A DNA stretch of 64,000 nucleotides. It comes from Rhizobiales bacterium Y(2018) (GTDB lineage: Bacteria; Pseudomonadota; Alphaproteobacteria; Rhizobiales; Aestuariivirgaceae). This document shows positions 7,685-29,393 of the stretch, piece after piece. The position numbers were made by a program, and so were the translations under genes. The notes below the pieces were generated by a model. It made no database searches. It saw only the letters and a list, made by a program, of their open reading frames with translations, and had not been told where the DNA came from. The DNA is taken from contig SCPD01000009.1 of assembly GCA_005502925.1 (NCBI GenBank), positions 186,001 through 250,000 on the forward strand. The letters run 5' to 3'. Positions within the stretch are counted from its first letter, which is position 1. Each line of letters opens with the position of its first letter.

Positions 7685-7785
7685 CGTCATCCCGGCGAAA
7701 GCCGGATCCATTAAACTGGCGCAATATTAGCGACGCTGCCTGCGTGGATAGGTTTTGTGGATCCCGGCATTCGCCGGGATGACGG
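7685..7785. repeat. inverted pair of REP-like palindromic repeats
   Basis: Copy A (7685-7710) reads CGTCATCCCGGCGAAAGCCG then GATCCA. Copy B (7758-7785) is its reverse complement, TGGATCCCGGCATTCGCCGG then GATGACGG. Each copy is itself an imperfect hairpin (CCCGGC..GCCGGG) and the two together can form a long stem around a ~47-bp loop. The pair lies between the convergent ends of hutG and the OCD gene, where it could act as a bidirectional terminator. The same element recurs at 10754-10857. Confidence 0.85.
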
Positions 7786-10753: not shown

Positions 10754-10857
10754 CCGTCATCCCGGCGAAAGCCGGGATCCATTGAATAAGTACAAGCGGG
10801 CGGCGGTCGTCGCGTGGAGAGAATTTAGGGGATCCCGGCTTTCGCCGGGATGACGGA
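10754..10857. repeat. second inverted pair of REP-like palindromic repeats
   Basis: Copy A at 10754-10782 and reverse-complement copy B at 10829-10857 carry the same CGTCATCCCGGCGAAAGCCG core as the pair at 7685-7785. They fill most of the gap between the cysD stop and the cysNC start. Translation of one copy gives the spurious peptide DPGFRRDDG in front of CysNC. Their placement inside a transcription unit suggests a processed or stabilising mRNA hairpin rather than a full terminator. Confidence 0.85.
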
Positions 10858-22114: not shown

Positions 22115-23041
22115 TTACCCGCAGGGATCGAAGTTCAGGCGATGGCCCGGACGCGGCCATGGCCGGCTGACCAGCCGGCCGGTGCTCGACAAAGTGATAA
22201 AGGCCGTCTTCAGGTCCGCGCCGCCGAAGCAGATATTGGTGCAATAGGGATCGGGCATGGCGATGAACTCGACGAAGGCGCCATCCGCTGCGATGACATT
22301 GATGCCGCCGAGAACCAGCGAGGCCACGCAGACGGTGCCGTCCGCTTCGACAGCGAGAGAATCGAACGATGTATAGCCGGATGGGCCGGCCAGATGGCGG
22401 CCGCCATTCTCATGCGGCGGTATTCTGCTGATGACGCCCGGCTCTGCGATATCGAAGGCCCAGAGATGGCCGGTGCGCGTCTCGGCGACATAGACGCTCA
22501 GCTCGTCGGGCGACAGGCCGACACCATTGGGCATGATCATCGGCTGGATGAGCTCACGGATCAGGCTGCCATCGATCTTCGCATAATAAAGTCCGCCCAG
22601 ATCGACATCGCGGGGACGCCGCTTGCCATGGTCAGTGAAATAAAAACCGCCATGCCGGTCGAAGACGAGGTCATTCGGGCCTTTGAGTGGACGACCGTCG
22701 CAGCTCGTATAAAGCACTTCCACCTTGCCGGTCTCGATGTCGATGCGCTCGATCCAGCCGCCGCGATAGTCATCAGGCTGGCCGGCAGGGACGAGCCGGC
22801 CGTCCACCGTCTTCCAGGCGAAGCCACCATTGTTGCAGACATAAAGATGGCCGTCCGGACCGAAGGCCAGGCCATTCGGTCCGCCTCCCGGCGTTGCGAT
22901 CACAGTCTTGCGGCCGTTGCGATCGATACGCGTCACACAGCCTCTGGCGATTTCCACCACGGCGATGGCGCCATCCGGCAGCATTACCGGGCCTTCGGGA
23001 AAAGCGAGGTCTGAAGCAATTTCGGTCAGAAGAGAGGTCAT
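22115..23041 (-). CDS. SMP-30/gluconolactonase/LRE-like family protein
   Basis: A 308-aa six-bladed beta-propeller protein of the SMP-30 family. DLAFPEGPVMLPDGAIAVVE (about residues 11-30), GPNGLAFGPDGHLYVCNNGG, GPNDLVFDRHGGFYFTD and MPNGVGLSPDELSVYVAETR supply the metal-binding Glu, Asn and Asp positions. The likely activity is lactone hydrolysis in sugar-acid catabolism. Its ATG overlaps the stop of the GlxA-type regulator by 4 bp (ATGA), so it is translationally coupled to it. It lies just upstream of the PhyH-lacI unit on the same strand. Confidence 0.88.
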   Translation of the reverse strand: MTSLLTEIASDLAFPEGPVMLPDGAIAVVEIARGCVTRIDRNGRKTVIATPGGGPNGLAFGPDGHLYVCNNGGFAWKTVDGRLVPAGQPDDYRGGWIERIDIETGKVEVLYTSCDGRPLKGPNDLVFDRHGGFYFTDHGKRRPRDVDLGGLYYAKIDGSLIRELIQPMIMPNGVGLSPDELSVYVAETRTGHLWAFDIAEPGVISRIPPHENGGRHLAGPSGYTSFDSLAVEADGTVCVASLVLGGINVIAADGAFVEFIAMPDPYCTNICFGGADLKTAFITLSSTGRLVSRPWPRPGHRLNFDPCG

Positions 23042-23994
23042 CCACGCTCCGCTCTCGGCGACATGCCGGTCTCGGCCTTGTAGCAGGTCGAGAAGTGGCT
23101 GGCATTGGCGAAGCCGCAGGCGATGGCGATCTCGGTGATGGTGAGGGCCGAGTGGCGCAAGAGCTCACCCGCCGCCTCGACCCTGAGGCTGCGATAATGA
23201 TCGATGAAGCTCTTGCCCAGATACCGGGCGAAGAGCCGGTCGAGCTGGCGGGTCGAGAGGCCGATGCTCTTCGCCACGGCGTCGCGGTCGAGCGGCTCGC
23301 TCAGATTGTTCTGCATCAGCTCGAGCGCGGCGATCAGATCGCGGCGGTGGATGCCATAGCGCTCGCCGACCGAGGTGCGCTGCGGTCCACCGCCCGGATG
23401 GATGTCGGTATGCAGGAACCAGTCGCTGGTCCGCATCGCCAGCGCGGTGCCGTGCCGCTCGGCGATGAGCGCATGCATCATGTCGAGCGGCGCCACGCCG
23501 CCGGCGCAGGTCACCCGGTTGCGGTCGATCACGTAACGCGCGCGGCTCAGCGACAGATCGGGAAATTCCTCGGCGAAGGCCTGGGCATGTTCCCAGTGAA
23601 TGGTCATGCGGTGGCCGGCCATGATGCCGGCGCGGGCAAGGATGAACGGCCCACCCGAGACGCCGCCCATGCGCACGCCCCGCTGCGCCAGGCGCCTGAG
23701 CCAGGCGAGGGTGGGGCGATGGGTGAACTGGGCCGGGTTGCCGCCGGCGCAGACGAGGAGCAGATCGAGATCGAGATCGTCGCCGACCCGCGCCGGGCAG
23801 GGCAGTGTCGCGCCGCAGGAGGACATGACGATCGGCTCCTTATGCGTGATGTGCACCCAGCGATAGAGTTCGCGCCCGACGAAATGATTGGCGGCGCGCA
23901 AGGGCTCGATCGCCGAGGCGTAGGACATCAGCGCCAGCCCTGGGATGACCAGGAAGCCGATGGTCTGGGGTGAATCTTCGCTCCGGGAGGCCAT
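23038..23994 (-). CDS. glxA: GlxA-family AraC-type transcriptional regulator
   Basis: A 318-aa regulator with an N-terminal DJ-1/PfpI-like domain (residues ~10-190, IGFLVIPGLALMSYASAIEP, GGVSGGPFILARAG) and a C-terminal AraC double HTH at about 215-315 (SIGLSTRQLDRLFARYLGKS, EIAIACGFANASHFSTCYK). It matches GlxA of rhizobial glx clusters. It is divergent from the mgdABCD operon 91 bp away, with an inverted repeat between them, so it is a plausible activator of that operon. It is followed with a 4-bp overlap by the SMP-30 gene. Confidence 0.9.
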   Translation of the reverse strand: MASRSEDSPQTIGFLVIPGLALMSYASAIEPLRAANHFVGRELYRWVHITHKEPIVMSSCGATLPCPARVGDDLDLDLLLVCAGGNPAQFTHRPTLAWLRRLAQRGVRMGGVSGGPFILARAGIMAGHRMTIHWEHAQAFAEEFPDLSLSRARYVIDRNRVTCAGGVAPLDMMHALIAERHGTALAMRTSDWFLHTDIHPGGGPQRTSVGERYGIHRRDLIAALELMQNNLSEPLDRDAVAKSIGLSTRQLDRLFARYLGKSFIDHYRSLRVEAAGELLRHSALTITEIAIACGFANASHFSTCYKAETGMSPRAERG

Positions 23995-24085: not shown

Positions 24086-25336
24086 GTGCGCTATTCGGTC
24101 TTCTCGCTCCTCAAGAATTCATTCTCCGGCCACAAGAACTGGGCGCCCGCCTGGCGCGAACCACAGCCGAAGAAGGAGTACGACGTCATCATCGTCGGCG
24201 GCGGCGGCCATGGCCTCGCCACCGCCTATTACCTCGCCAAGGAGCATGGCATCACCAATGTGGCGGTGCTGGAGAAGGGCTGGCTCGGCTCCGGCAATAT
24301 CGGGCGCAACACGACGATCATCCGCTCCAACTATCTGCTCGTCGGTAACAACCCGTTCTACGAATGGTCGCTGAAATTGTGGGAAGGCCTCGAGCAGGAC
24401 TTCAATTTCAACGCGATGGTGTCGCAGCGGGGCGTGCTCAATCTCTATCATTCCGATCCGCAGCGCGACGCCTATGCCAGGCGTGGCAATGCGATGCGGC
24501 TCGACGGGGTCGATTCCGAGCTCCTCGACCGCGAGGCGGTGCGCGAGATGGCGCCGTTCCTCAGCTTCGACAATGCGCGCTTCCCGATCATGGGCGGCCT
24601 GCTGCAGCGGCGCGGCGGCACGGTGCGCCATGATGGCGTGGCCTGGGGTTATGCCCGCGGCGCCGATCTGCGTGGCGTCGACATCATCCAGAATTGCGAA
24701 GTGACCGGCATCCGCATCGAAAACGGCAAGGTCCAGGGTGTGGAGACCAACAAGGGTTATATCGGCTGCAAGAAGCTGGGCCTGGCTGCCGCCGGCAATA
24801 CCGGTGAGGTCGCGGCGATGGCCGGCATGAAGCTGCCGATCGAAAGCCATGTGCTGCAGGCCTTCGTCTCGGAAGGCATCAAGCCCTATCTCGATACCGT
24901 CATCACCTATGGCGTCGGGCATTTCTATGTGTCGCAGTCGGACAAAGGCGGTCTCGTCTTCGGCGGCGATCTCGACGGCTACAACTCCTATGCCAGGCGC
25001 GGCAACATGCCGACAGTCGAGCATGTGATCGAGGCAGGCGTCGCCATGATCCCCGGCATCGCGCGCATCCGGGTGCTCAGATCCTGGGGCGGCATCATGG
25101 ACATGTCGATGGACGGCTCGCCGATCATCGACAAGACGCATGTCGACGGGCTCTATCTCAATTGCGGCTGGTGCTATGGCGGCTTCAAGGCGACGCCGGC
25201 ATCGGGCTGGTGCTTCGCGCATACGATCGCCAAGAACGAGGCGCATGCGCTCAACGCACCCTATCGCCTCGACCGGTTCCGGCGCGGCTACATGATCGAT
25301 GAAAAAGGCGTCGGCGCCACGCCCAATCTGCACTGA
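24086..25336 (+). CDS. mgdA: N-methylglutamate dehydrogenase beta subunit (SoxB-like)
   Basis: A 416-aa DAO-fold flavoprotein homologous to the beta subunit of heterotetrameric sarcosine oxidase. The FAD-binding VIIVGGGGHGLATAYYLAKE is near residue 30. GSGNIGRNTTIIRSNYL and WGGIMDMSMDGSPIIDKT are family signatures. The best start is GTG at 24086, giving the conserved (M)RYSVFSLLKNSFSGHKNW; an ATG further upstream would add non-conserved sequence. It heads the beta-delta-alpha-gamma operon. By sequence alone sarcosine oxidase remains possible; the mgsABC-gmaS neighbourhood favours N-methylglutamate oxidation. Confidence 0.88.
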   Translation: MRYSVFSLLKNSFSGHKNWAPAWREPQPKKEYDVIIVGGGGHGLATAYYLAKEHGITNVAVLEKGWLGSGNIGRNTTIIRSNYLLVGNNPFYEWSLKLWEGLEQDFNFNAMVSQRGVLNLYHSDPQRDAYARRGNAMRLDGVDSELLDREAVREMAPFLSFDNARFPIMGGLLQRRGGTVRHDGVAWGYARGADLRGVDIIQNCEVTGIRIENGKVQGVETNKGYIGCKKLGLAAAGNTGEVAAMAGMKLPIESHVLQAFVSEGIKPYLDTVITYGVGHFYVSQSDKGGLVFGGDLDGYNSYARRGNMPTVEHVIEAGVAMIPGIARIRVLRSWGGIMDMSMDGSPIIDKTHVDGLYLNCGWCYGGFKATPASGWCFAHTIAKNEAHALNAPYRLDRFRRGYMIDEKGVGATPNLH

Positions 25337-25365: not shown

Positions 25366-25536
25366 TCTCCCTCCACCGCGCGCAGCGCGGGGAGGGTGGC
25401 GCGCGCCAGCGCGACGGGTGGGGTATTTCCGCAAGCGCGGTCTTCCTCACTTCTGCAAGACCTTGCCAGCGGCATTACCCCACCCGACCACGGCTTCACC
25501 GTGGCCACCCTCCCCGCCTTCGGCGGCGGAGGGAGA
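25366..25536. repeat. 171-bp palindromic intergenic element between mgdA and mgdB
   Basis: The outer arms at 25366-25400 and about 25502-25536 are near-perfect inverted copies (TCTCCCTCC..GGGGAGGGTGGC against GCCACCCTCCCC..GGAGGGAGA). Inner arms GACGGGTGGGGT and ACCCCACCCGAC extend the stem, leaving a ~50-bp centre. This is the form of a non-autonomous palindromic repeat common in Rhizobiales intergenic DNA. It accounts for most of the unusual 226-bp gap inside an otherwise tight operon. Confidence 0.85.
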
Positions 25537-25562: not shown

Positions 25563-25853
25563 ATGCTGATCAAATGTCCCTATTGCGGCCCGCGTCCGTC
25601 GGAAGAATTCACCATCCTCGGTGATGCGTCGGTCAGGCGGCCCACCTCCAATGATCCCGCCACGATGGATCAATGGTTCGACTATGTGTATCTGCGCGAC
25701 AATCCCAAAGGCCGATACAAGGAATACTGGCATCATGGCGGCGGTTGCCGCTCCTGGCTGGTGGTCGATCGTGACACCCAGACCCATGAAATCTTCGGGA
25801 CGCAAGCGGCGCGCGACGCCACGCTTGCCGAGAACAAGAAGGGCAACTCCTGA
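25563..25853 (+). CDS. mgdB: N-methylglutamate dehydrogenase delta subunit (SoxD-like)
   Basis: A 96-aa small subunit starting MLIKCPYCGPRPSEEF. The CPYC pair, a His near residue 60 (YWHHGGGCRSWL) and Cys66 are the zinc-binding positions of sarcosine oxidase delta subunits. Upstream in-frame codons belong to the palindromic element, so the ATG at 25563 is chosen. Its stop overlaps the alpha-subunit ATG by one base (TGATG), typical of this operon. Confidence 0.88.
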   Translation: MLIKCPYCGPRPSEEFTILGDASVRRPTSNDPATMDQWFDYVYLRDNPKGRYKEYWHHGGGCRSWLVVDRDTQTHEIFGTQAARDATLAENKKGNS

Positions 25854-28792
25854 TGGCCGGCTTTCGTCTCGCCAAGGGCGGTCTCATCGACCGCTCCACC
25901 ACGCTCGACTTCACCTTCGACGGCAAGAGCTTCACCGGCCATCCGGGCGATACGCTGGCTTCCGCCCTCATCGCCAATGGCGTCCACCTCATGGGGCGCT
26001 CGTTCAAATATCACCGCCCGCGCGGTGTGATCGCGGCGGGTGCGGCCGAGCCCAATGCGCTGGTCGAATTGCGCGATGGCGGACGCAAGGAAGCCAATAC
26101 CCGCGCCACGGTGATCGAGCTCTATGACGGGCTCAAGGCCCGCAGCCAGAACCGCTGGCCGTCGCTCAATTTTGACATCGGCGCCATCAATTCCCTCGCC
26201 GCGTCCGTTTTCGTCGCGGGCTTCTACTACAAGACCTTCATGTGGCCGAAGAGCTTCTGGGAGAAGATCTACGAGCCGCTCATCCGCCGCGCCGCGGGCC
26301 TCGGCTCCGCCACGCATGAAGCCGATCCCGACAAATATGAGAAGTCCTACGGCCATTGCGACCTCCTGGTGATCGGCTCGGGGCCGGCCGGCCTCTCGGC
26401 GGCGCTCACCGCCGGGCGTTCCGGCGCGCGGGTGCTCCTCATCGATGAAGGCTCGCGCCTCGGCGGCTCGCTCCTCAGTGAGAATGAGGAGATCGGCGGC
26501 GTCACCGGCTACGACTGGGCGCAAGCGGCCATCGCCGAGCTCGCCAGCCTCGCCAATGTCACGCTGATGCCGCGCACCACCGTCTTCGGCGCCTATGACG
26601 GCAATGTCTTCGGCGCGCTCGAGCGGGTGAACGACCATGTGCTGGCGCCGTCGCCCTTCGAGCCGCGCCAGCGCTACTGGAAGATCATGGCCAAGCGCGC
26701 CGTCCTGGCGGCCGGCGCCGAAGAGCGGCCGATCGTGTTCGGCGGCAATGACGTGCCGGGCGTGATGCTCGCCTCCGCCATGCGGACCTTCGCCAACCGT
26801 TATGCGACCGCTTCCGGCAAATCGGTGGTGGTATTCACCAACAACGATTCCGGCTACCGCACCGCGCGCGACCTCAAGGCCAAGGGCGTGCATGTCGAGG
26901 TGATCGTCGATTCACGGAAGGACGCTGCCGCCGAAGCGGCCGGCATTCCGGTGCTGAAGGGACGCATCGTCAGCGATGCCACGGCCGGCAAGATCGTTTC
27001 CGGCGTCGAGCTTTCCGACCACACCCATATCGCCTGCGACACGGTGGCGATGTCGGGCGGCTGGAGCCCGGTCGTCAATCTGCTCTGCCATAAGGGCGCC
27101 AAGCCCGTCTGGAACGACAAGCTGCAGGCTTTCCTGCCGCCCAATGGCGATGCGCAACTGGTCGCCGCGGGTTCCGCCAATGGCGCCATGCTGCTTTCCG
27201 AAGCCTTGCGCGAAGGCGCCGAGAAGGCGGCCAAAGCGGTCGGCGATCTCGGCTTCACGGCCAAAGCCGATGTTCCCAAGTGCCGTGATGAAGCCTATGC
27301 GATCCAGCCGCTCTGGTGGGTGAAGGACAGCCATGGCAAGGCCTTCGTCGACTACCAGAACGATGTCACGCCGAAGGATCTGCCGCTCGCGGCGCGCGAA
27401 GGCTACAGCTCGATCGAGCTCGCCAAGCGCTACACGACCGCCGGCATGGCGACGGATCAAGGCAAGCTCGGCAATGTGAACGCCATCGCCATTCTGGCCG
27501 AAGCGGCGGGCAAAAGCATCGCCGAGATCGGTACCACCACCTTCCGCCCCTTCTACACGCCGGTGGCTTTCGCCGCTTTCGCGGGTCCGTTCACGGGCCA
27601 TCACTTCATGCCGACGCGCAAGACGCCGCTGCATGACTGGGCCGAGGAGCAGGGCGCCGTCTTCGTCGAAACCGGCCTGTGGCTGCGCTCGAGCTGGTTC
27701 CCGCTGCCCACTGAATCCGGCTGGCTCGATCCGGTCATTCGCGAAGTGAAGGCGGCGCGCGAGAAAGTCGGCATCTGCGATGTCTCGACGCTCGGCAAGA
27801 TCGACGTGCAGGGGGCCGATGCGGCCGAGTTCCTCAACCGGCTCTATTGCAACGGCTTCGCCCAGCTCGACATCGGCAAGGCGCGCTACGGCCTCATGCT
27901 GCGCGAGGACGGCATCGTCATGGATGACGGCACGACGTCGCGGCTGGCGGCGGATCATTTCTTCATGACCACGACCACGGCGAACGCCGCCAAGATCATG
28001 ACGCATATGGAATTCTGCCATCAGGCGCTGTGGCCCGAGCTCGACGTGCAATATGTGTCGGTCTCCGAGCAATGGGCGCAGATGGCGGTGGCCGGTCCGA
28101 AAGCGCGGCCGACATTGCAGAAGATCGTCGACGATGTGATCCTCGACGACATCACCTTCCCCTATCTCGCGGCGAAGGAGATCAGCATTCTGGGCGGCAT
28201 CACCGCGCGTCTCTTCCGCATCTCGTTCTCGGGTGAGCATGCCTATGAGCTGTCGGTGCCGGCGGATTATGGGAACCTTGTGGCTCGCGCGATCATGCAG
28301 GCGGGTGAGGAGTTCGGCATCACGCCCTATGGCGTCGAGGCGCTCTCGGTCATGCGCGTCGAAAAGGGCCATGTGGCGGGCGGCGAGCTCAACGGCACGA
28401 CGACGGCCGACGATCTCGGCCTCGGCCGCATGATGTCGACCAAGAAGGACTATATCGGCCGCATGATGGCGGGGCGCGAAGGCCTGACCGCGAAGGGCCG
28501 GCAAGTGGTGGTCGGCATCCGGCCGGTCGACAAGGCCGACCGCATCCGCGCCGGCTCACATCTCCTGAAGAAGGACGACAAGCCGTCGCTGGCCGGCAGC
28601 CAGGGCTACATCACGGCCGTCGCCTATTCGCCGACGCTCGGCTACTGGCTGGGCCTCGCTCTGTGCAGCAATGGCCGTCAGCGCCATGGCGAGATCGTCA
28701 AAGTCTTCGACGGGATACGCAACATCCACATGTATGCCGAGATCTGCGATCCCATGCATTACGACAAGGAGAACAAGAAGCTCCATGCCTGA
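25853..28792 (+). CDS. mgdC: N-methylglutamate dehydrogenase alpha subunit (SoxA-like)
   Basis: A 979-aa alpha subunit. The order of parts is as follows. An N-terminal ferredoxin-like domain (FTFDGKSFTGHPGDTLASAL) spans about residues 20-100. A pyridine-nucleotide oxidoreductase core follows, with the NAD loop VIGSGPAGLSAALTAGRSGA near residue 175. The C-terminal GcvT-like folate domain begins near residue 600 (HDWAEEQGAVFVETGLW) and includes GVEALSVMRVEKGHVAGGEL. The folate domain is expected to pass the one-carbon unit from oxidised N-methyl substrate to tetrahydrofolate. Full family length. Confidence 0.88.
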   Translation: MAGFRLAKGGLIDRSTTLDFTFDGKSFTGHPGDTLASALIANGVHLMGRSFKYHRPRGVIAAGAAEPNALVELRDGGRKEANTRATVIELYDGLKARSQNRWPSLNFDIGAINSLAASVFVAGFYYKTFMWPKSFWEKIYEPLIRRAAGLGSATHEADPDKYEKSYGHCDLLVIGSGPAGLSAALTAGRSGARVLLIDEGSRLGGSLLSENEEIGGVTGYDWAQAAIAELASLANVTLMPRTTVFGAYDGNVFGALERVNDHVLAPSPFEPRQRYWKIMAKRAVLAAGAEERPIVFGGNDVPGVMLASAMRTFANRYATASGKSVVVFTNNDSGYRTARDLKAKGVHVEVIVDSRKDAAAEAAGIPVLKGRIVSDATAGKIVSGVELSDHTHIACDTVAMSGGWSPVVNLLCHKGAKPVWNDKLQAFLPPNGDAQLVAAGSANGAMLLSEALREGAEKAAKAVGDLGFTAKADVPKCRDEAYAIQPLWWVKDSHGKAFVDYQNDVTPKDLPLAAREGYSSIELAKRYTTAGMATDQGKLGNVNAIAILAEAAGKSIAEIGTTTFRPFYTPVAFAAFAGPFTGHHFMPTRKTPLHDWAEEQGAVFVETGLWLRSSWFPLPTESGWLDPVIREVKAAREKVGICDVSTLGKIDVQGADAAEFLNRLYCNGFAQLDIGKARYGLMLREDGIVMDDGTTSRLAADHFFMTTTTANAAKIMTHMEFCHQALWPELDVQYVSVSEQWAQMAVAGPKARPTLQKIVDDVILDDITFPYLAAKEISILGGITARLFRISFSGEHAYELSVPADYGNLVARAIMQAGEEFGITPYGVEALSVMRVEKGHVAGGELNGTTTADDLGLGRMMSTKKDYIGRMMAGREGLTAKGRQVVVGIRPVDKADRIRAGSHLLKKDDKPSLAGSQGYITAVAYSPTLGYWLGLALCSNGRQRHGEIVKVFDGIRNIHMYAEICDPMHYDKENKKLHA

Positions 28793-29393
28793 CACCGCCA
28801 TTGCCATCAAACGCGTCTCGGCTTTGGCCGATGTCGCGGTCCAGGGCCGCTTCGGCGCCGACAAGGGCGCCCCCGGCGTCACCTTCTCGGTGCGCCATCC
28901 GGCGTCGATCGTCACCGTCATCGCCCGCAAGGACAAGTCGGAAGCGCTCAGCAAGGCGGTCGAGGCCGCCTACAGATTCCCGCTTCCCGGCGTCGGTGAA
29001 AGCGCGAGCAAGAGCGGACTCGCCTTCCATTGGTGCGGCGTCGACCAGTATTTCGCCATCGCCGAGGGTAAGGCCGAGGCCGAGCTCTATCGCGAGCTCA
29101 AAACCCGCTTCGAAGGCCTCGCCTCCTGCTCGGACCAGAGCCATGGCCGCGTCATCATCCGTGTCGTGGGGCCAAAGGCGCGCGCGCTTCTTTCCAAAGG
29201 CACGCCGATCGACCTGCACGCTTCCGCTTTCGGGCCCGGCAAGTCGGCCATGACCCAGATGGCGCATGTCGGCGTCCATCTAATCCAGACCGGCGAGGAT
29301 GCGTTCGAGCTGTCGGTGTTCCGCGGCTTCTCGGAGAATTTCTGGGAGTGGCTGACTGAGCAGGCGGAGGAATACGGCTATCAGGTCTTGTGA
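28785..29393 (+). CDS. mgdD: N-methylglutamate dehydrogenase gamma subunit (SoxG-like)
   Basis: A 202-aa gamma subunit, the last gene of the operon, starting MPDTAIAIKRVSALADVAVQ and overlapping the alpha-subunit stop by 8 bp. It contains GRVIIRVVGPKARALLSKG and the C-terminal TQMAHVGVHLIQTGEDAFEL, which resemble the GcvT-like gamma subunit of heterotetrameric sarcosine oxidase. Its role is assembly and folate-domain contact. No transcription terminator was evident before the convergent TetR gene 18 bp away. Confidence 0.88.
   Translation: MPDTAIAIKRVSALADVAVQGRFGADKGAPGVTFSVRHPASIVTVIARKDKSEALSKAVEAAYRFPLPGVGESASKSGLAFHWCGVDQYFAIAEGKAEAELYRELKTRFEGLASCSDQSHGRVIIRVVGPKARALLSKGTPIDLHASAFGPGKSAMTQMAHVGVHLIQTGEDAFELSVFRGFSENFWEWLTEQAEEYGYQVL

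Follow-up and report, generated by a model that had tools for sequence, protein, structure and literature searches.

A REP-like palindromic repeat in the soxB-soxD gap, seemingly a repeated landing place for hairpin repeats in one bacterial family

Introduction

Why does a 171-nt palindrome lie between two genes of an otherwise tightly packed operon, and does it alter the expression of the encoded enzyme? The question arises from a window of 64,000 nt (the whole stretch of DNA analysed here) of a Rhizobiales genome, referred to below as G000. A preliminary description of this DNA regarded the palindrome as an inserted mobile repeat that may change the ratio of the beta subunit to the other subunits.

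The operon and its palindrome

The features concerned are as follows.

24089 to 25336, plus strand: soxB-like gene, beta subunit (TIGR01373, 720 bits against a cut-off of 529), with coordinates beginning at the first codon matched by the model and the true start slightly upstream
25366 to 25536, no strand: the 171-nt palindrome, in which a variable centre separates two inverted two-hairpin units
25366 to 25424, plus strand: left unit, CTCCCTCC - hairpin 1 - GGGGAGGGTGGC - hairpin 2 - GACGGGTGGGGT, ends approximate
25425 to 25474, no strand: variable centre, differing among copies and between G000 and genome G002
25475 to 25536, minus strand: right unit, an inverted counterpart of the left one whose hairpin-2 sequence differs, with approximate ends
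25563 to 25853, plus strand: soxD-like gene, delta subunit (TIGR01374, 113.3 bits, just below the cut-off of 116.5)
25853 to 28792, plus strand: soxA-like gene, alpha subunit (TIGR01372, 1385 bits against a cut-off of 1164), overlapping the end of soxD
28788 to 29393, plus strand: soxG-like gene, gamma subunit (TIGR01375, 112.5 bits, below the cut-off of 143.95), start approximate

By the NCBIfam models, which are family-level, the gene order is soxB-soxD-soxA-soxG, the four subunits of heterotetrameric sarcosine oxidase; the names mgdA and mgdB used in the preliminary description receive no support from these family-level matches. In mgdABCD (N-methylglutamate dehydrogenase) operons, gmaS/mgs genes lie nearby. 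A divergent gene for a GbdR-like regulator (choline metabolism) is located upstream of the operon at 23038-23994 (286 bits, under the cut-off of 480).

The other junctions of the operon do overlap or nearly touch, as had been described: the soxA ORF starts on the last base of the soxD ORF (25853), and the soxA and soxG ORFs overlap, the soxG start used being approximate. No expansion is seen between soxD and soxA, whose spacing measures -4 or -1 nt in all 21 family loci. Between the end of soxB (25336) and the soxD ATG at 25563, the element begins 29 nt after the soxB stop and ends 26 nt before the ATG. The sequence GATGAGGAAC, which lies between the element and this ATG and thus outside the element, looks by eye like a purine-rich RBS.

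Three pairs of inverted arms are nested in the palindrome: an outer pair (25366-25379/25523-25536; 14 nt, 93% complementary), a second pair (25387-25400/25504-25517; 14 nt, 100%) and an inner pair (25415-25444/25457-25486; 30 nt, 80%). The segment 25340-25560 folds at -136.6 kcal/mol; its 200 dinucleotide shuffles average -86.1 +/- 4.8 and never fold as well (z -10.6). The arms and the fold bear out the palindrome first described from the letters alone, with coordinates right to within about 1 nt. A simple scan found neither a sigma-70-like promoter nor a terminator-like site in the element, the sole terminator match being on the minus strand inside soxB. Two more palindromic repeats, inverted pairs of the CGTCATCCCGGCGAAAGCCGG type, were noticed in the window at 10754-10856 and 7685-7784, and by eye they fit the CGTC REPs described for alpha-proteobacteria.

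The repeat unit and its dispersal

Copies compared by eye share a unit of approximately 65 nt, in which a short hairpin stands between the first and second conserved segments listed above and a second hairpin between the second and third. Complete copies consist of two such units facing each other around a variable centre and measure 167-195 nt when unnested. As judged by eye, the units are head-to-head at loci L001-L006 and L008-L010 and tail-to-tail at L018 and L022, apparently also at L007; single units were matched at L011 and L019.

The 23 distinct units of the retrieved loci show 14 different hairpin-2 sequences, and in 21 of these units hairpin 2 forms at least four pairs. Covariation was assessed in 16 distinct 36-nt units, chosen by us from exact-pattern matches and leaving out other 36-nt forms and other lengths. 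In this set, 96.9% of hairpin-2 cells are paired compared with 63.2% after shuffling (0 of 500 shuffles as high), the covariation score is 0.761 compared with 0.211, and all slid registers of the alignment score worse. This strong compensatory change indicates that the stem is maintained while its sequence changes.

A BLAST search of G000 with the element gave at least 47 match rows at no fewer than 27 distinct places among the best 40 of 128 candidates. The exact unit pattern occurs 27 times in G000, 36 in G001, 57 in G002 and 17 in G004, all of the same genus, and outside the genus 49 times in G009 and seven in G012. It is present in these six of 36 genomes and has no occurrence in the congeneric G003 or in the 29 others; a reversed control pattern gave none in all 36. 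With the whole element as query, matches were obtained at 1e-6 in six of 60 genomes (up to 14 candidates scored per genome). One search of plasmid records gave no match to the element. A consensus unit pattern, applied with as many as 3 mismatches allowed, had no match in the window; it had been made from other copies and is unfit for this one, hence uninformative. A lack of further copies, which would have spoken against the mobile repeat of the preliminary description, is therefore excluded by the dispersed places and exact units in G000.

Some copies have themselves been disturbed. At L008 (1501-1788; G000, contig C22, 268783-269070) a different long palindrome is nested between the hairpin-2 stem halves of the right unit, and G001 matches the outer parts of this nested copy at C8:1748594-1748880. 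Two elements close to contig ends of G000, at L013 and L015 (C35 and C16), are broken at the same point within the GGGGAGGG motif; both run on into the same foreign sequence (as mutual reverse complements), a pattern that an insertion sequence entering the repeat would leave.

Comparison with known repeat systems

REPs of E. coli lie between cistrons, for example in malE-malF, and the element here is likewise positioned behind a coding region. Its many dispersed copies, opposite-orientation dimers and compensatory stem change are those of REP/BIME repeats. In the excerpt of PMC3733652, REP, BIME and REPIN sequences are, like the element here, dispersed palindromic units that often form head-to-head dimers and for the most part follow coding regions. 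The classical REP unit is given there as 20-40 bp; the unit described here is termed 'REP-like' rather than a classical REP because it is longer, as noted above, and has two stem-loops. Two super-families, GTAG and CGTC, are distinguished in the same excerpt, the latter typical of alpha-proteobacteria and carrying a CGTC (or TGTC/CCTC) foot with AT in the first stem positions. Here hairpin 2 has a GACG (=CGTC) foot in 16 of the 23 distinct units, and the AT stem start was not seen by eye.

Among other alpha-proteobacterial repeats, the Bru-RS of Brucella are also intergenic palindromes in many copies, of about 100 nt (excerpt of PMC2267715); compared by length only, they are shorter, at 103-105 bp, than complete unnested copies of the present element. 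Br-REP1 and Br-REP2 of Bradyrhizobium are hairpin repeats in 3' UTRs, Br-REP1 being the central of three stem-loops, and their printed consensus sequences differ by eye from the present element (excerpt of PMC5082802). The element is a REP/BIME-like mobile repeat whose family was not found named in the open-licence literature searched; at the level of titles and abstract openings this search gave nothing on the repeat itself or on palindromes in a soxB-soxD gap.

The soxB-soxD junction in relatives

This soxB was found in four of the five same-genus genomes, G000 included. The element lies at the same junction in three of the four measured (G000, G001 and G002), its identity to the G000 copy being 98% in G001 and 79% in G002; conservation in all relatives, the second outcome that would have told against a mobile insertion, is thus excluded. 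The fourth, G004, has a different palindrome at this junction, which is itself dispersed: with 40 candidates scored per genome, at least 93, 92, 76 and 62 match rows were obtained in G004, G000, G001 and G002, respectively, and beyond the genus at least 10 in G009 and 19 in G070.

The family set consists of 41 soxB-soxD loci, 40 of them measurable and one running off a contig end; two distant paralogues (60-61%) were left out. The gap has a median of 12 nt and is 4-14 nt in 26 of the 40. A junction was regarded as occupied when its gap was at least 50 nt and its fold z was below -3, and by this rule strong palindromes of several kinds fill ten of the 40. L148 (94 nt, z -0.3) and L147 (68 nt, z -1.5) are also long but lack a strong fold and were not counted as occupied. 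None of the orthologous junctions measured in the other family members has the present element. In a wider set of 80 named loci (79 measurable), four meet the rule, one of which (L024) is the same insert as in G030 and is already counted in the family. The idea that the hairpins must keep a distance of over 15 nt from the stop was dropped, because the three extra cases of the wider set come 0-6 nt after it by fold.

Most relatives measured therefore have the short, element-free junction that an insertion leads one to look for, and together with the dispersed copies this supports the mobile repeat insertion. The soxB-soxD gap seems to be a repeated landing place for hairpin repeats of several kinds.

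Two readings in which the element belongs to the operon or to its proteins can be judged on these data. A native structured RNA (a riboswitch, sRNA or attenuator) would be in keeping with the great stability of the fold and with arms conserved at the site in three genomes. However, Rfam gave no match at gathering threshold across the whole window (at the evalue threshold there were eight matches, all miRNA hairpin models far under their cut-offs), repeats of the same type occur at other loci, and orthologous junctions of other family members are without the element. Contradicted by dispersal and empty sites, this reading is highly improbable. In-frame palindromic elements occur in Rickettsia, and an N-terminal extension of SoxD might be imagined here, as G000 has an open frame from 25299 through the element into soxD and the inserts of G070 and G009 likewise leave the soxD frame open. 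Yet this frame is stopped within the insert in the close relatives G001 and G002, and in seven of the ten inserts in all, and soxD has its own start with the RBS-like stretch; the extension is rejected as scarcely credible.

Independence of the insertions

The ten occupied junctions comprise one common insert (G000, G001 and G002) and those of G004, G009, G030, G061, G066, G070 and G071. Pairwise BLAST links parts of the G004 and G071 inserts and of the G061 and G066 inserts, and weakly G004 with G070 and G030 with G071. The G061 and G066 inserts are of the CCCGGCGAAAGCCGGG type and by eye fit the CGTC repeats in the excerpt of PMC3733652. In the soxB tree these two genomes fall into different groups (support 0.99 each), both including empty junctions, and the group with G030 and G071 (support 0.945) includes two empty junctions. 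Because these groups also contain empty junctions, we infer about eight insertion events; merging the partly similar inserts gives about four, the minimum.

G004 branches within the genus in this tree (support 0.952), a position that would imply replacement of one element by the other. The soxB four-fold divergences within the genus are nearly equal (0.269, 0.287 and 0.273), so the order is uncertain. Eight of the ten genomes in one group of the tree, of weak support (0.538), are occupied.

Control junctions

As controls, 40 adjacent gene pairs (892 junctions, median gap at most 40 nt) around nuoF, murG, sucC, ureC and urtC in the same family were scored by nearly the same rule, with gaps of 50-400 nt and 40 shuffles compared with 60 for the sox set. 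The control genomes overlap with those of the sox set and are not identical to them. Junctions that failed coverage filters were dropped uncounted, one pair with a median gap of 228 nt (15 junctions) was left out, and 25 of the 892 gaps exceeded 400 nt and went unscored; many of these contain inserted ORFs, some of them bounded by inverted repeats. The soxB-soxD gap was chosen as the site in hand before the controls, and not by a genome-wide scan.

Four of 178 junctions in spaced control pairs (median 4-40 nt) were occupied. For overlapping or touching pairs the count was five of 714, all five in one ill-defined pair before sucC that has strong palindromes in 5 of 38 junctions and may be truly spaced; the upstream gene of this pair is presumably mdh. 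With the ambiguous pair included, nine of 216 were occupied. By Fisher's test, 10/40 for soxB-soxD differs from 4/178 at p 9e-6 and from 9/216 at p 1e-4. Counting eight events of 38 gives p 1e-4 and p 1e-3 against the same two controls, and the minimum of four events of 34 gives p 0.02 and 0.08. Among the controls, the urt operon (0/69) and overlapping junctions are weak because an insertion there could break translational coupling; constraint is probably stronger on nuo and cell-division genes than on a catabolic operon. Nor is soxB-soxD the only gap of its kind, given the occupancy before sucC and the repeat-like palindrome with which L235 begins (sucC-sucD of G001; gap above 400 nt, unscored).

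Such an excess raises the question of repeated selection for a stable intercistronic hairpin, in which different REP-like elements, each captured separately, would either lift soxB above soxDAG or fix the proportions of the four subunits. The number of inferred events at one junction and an occupancy above that of each of the 40 control pairs (highest control 2/13) argue for this. On the other hand, 30 of the 40 family junctions have no strong palindrome, the events cluster in the weakly supported part of the tree mentioned above, and the excess is weak at the minimum number of events; moreover, overlapping neighbour junctions would hardly tolerate insertion, and tolerance alone could explain the bias. 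We consider repeated selection unlikely, and that mobile palindromes were domesticated about eight times independently in one family, setting beta expression apart from delta-alpha-gamma, is similarly doubtful.

Strong palindromic inserts were also noticed at other loci, the genes being assigned from position. One at L246 (G070, small urease subunit genes) resembles the present element; others are at L184 and L233 (nuo operon of G002 and G078) and L204 (cell-division cluster of G002). At L187, L189 and L195 one nuo junction has an extra ~460-470 nt with long GCGAATAG-type inverted repeats at its ends in three genomes. L156, upstream of sucC in G022, is a 213-nt gap with a very strong palindrome (z -12.0).

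Evolution of the element in place

When the G000 and G002 elements are compared, 15 of 132 paired and 23 of 40 unpaired positions differ, as do 57 of 212 four-fold sites of soxB. The better conservation of the arms is compatible both with constraint on the hairpin and with exchange among copies, and to that extent it favours the selective reading. Against that reading, eight base pairs of the G000 structure are broken in G002, compared with two changed on both sides and kept and two changed on one side and kept (53 are the same and one is gapped). The G000 and G001 elements differ at 3 of 171 positions, which is ordinary for the operon: other operon windows, including nearby coding sequence, are equally low, and a claim of conservation beyond neutral was dropped.

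Means of spread

The target-site duplication expected of a MITE was not found in ten complete copies at eight sites; at most 2 nt could be obtained, and only under one choice of end. The flanks at the present site (29 + 26 nt) exceed the usual spacer of ~12 nt. Given these flanks and the lack of a duplication, this is not a clean insertion.

Genes matching PF01797 (Y1 transposase) number one each in G000, G002 and G004 and two in G003 (one under the cut-off), with none in G001. The element gave no match at 1e-4 in the loci around these genes (L109-L114), and a RAYT link is rejected for now; those flanks that were read carry another repeat. At L110 and L113 (G002 and G004), a Y1 (RAYT-like) transposase gene lies amid copies of another repeat with the core TTTCGGTGACAGTGCATT. 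In the excerpt of PMC3733652, CGTC repeats are apparently without a dedicated transposase, and the lack of a match to the present element around the Y1 genes agrees with this.

The junction could also be a preferred target of the transposition machinery, guided by sequence or structure, whatever the effect on the host. Several types of element at one place would suit such targeting, as would the observation that palindromic repeats are sometimes hit inside their hairpins by other elements (e.g., L008). However, no common flank motif was seen by eye, the distance from the soxB stop varies from ~20 to 90 nt, and no target-site duplication was seen; we regard a preferred target as quite unlikely.

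Possible effect and significance

The reading we favour, and hold to be very probable, is that a REP/BIME-type repeat, a head-to-head two-hairpin dimer, was inserted behind the soxB stop, and that the gap tolerates such inserts and has served as a landing site more than once. Judging from the dispersed copies and element-free junctions, the insertion would have occurred in an ancestor of part of the genus. The soxB-soxD gap is apparently the sole non-overlapping gap within the operon here, and soxD keeps its RBS-like sequence downstream of the insert; for these two reasons the insertion probably costs little.

If the operon is transcribed as one mRNA, the element would become a very stable hairpin 29 nt past the soxB stop. 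According to the excerpt of PMC5082802, E. coli REPs impede 3'-to-5' decay, stabilise upstream mRNA and function in transcription termination; they stall ribosomes if within 15 nt of the stop. Ribosome stalling is not expected here because the element begins farther from the stop. By analogy with the E. coli REPs, the hairpin might shield the soxB part of the message from 3'-to-5' decay and lead to a modest rise of soxB over soxDAG. Such modest protection would be the likeliest effect, with tolerance without any effect almost as likely; tolerance is the simplest reading of the element's presence, and a subunit ratio changed by the element, as first proposed, may or may not result.

The element adds a two-hairpin family to the palindromic repeats of alpha-proteobacteria. 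The soxB-soxD junction, filled in several ways and empty in close relatives, offers a natural experiment on whether intercistronic REP-type repeats are tolerated passengers or tools for uneven subunit expression.
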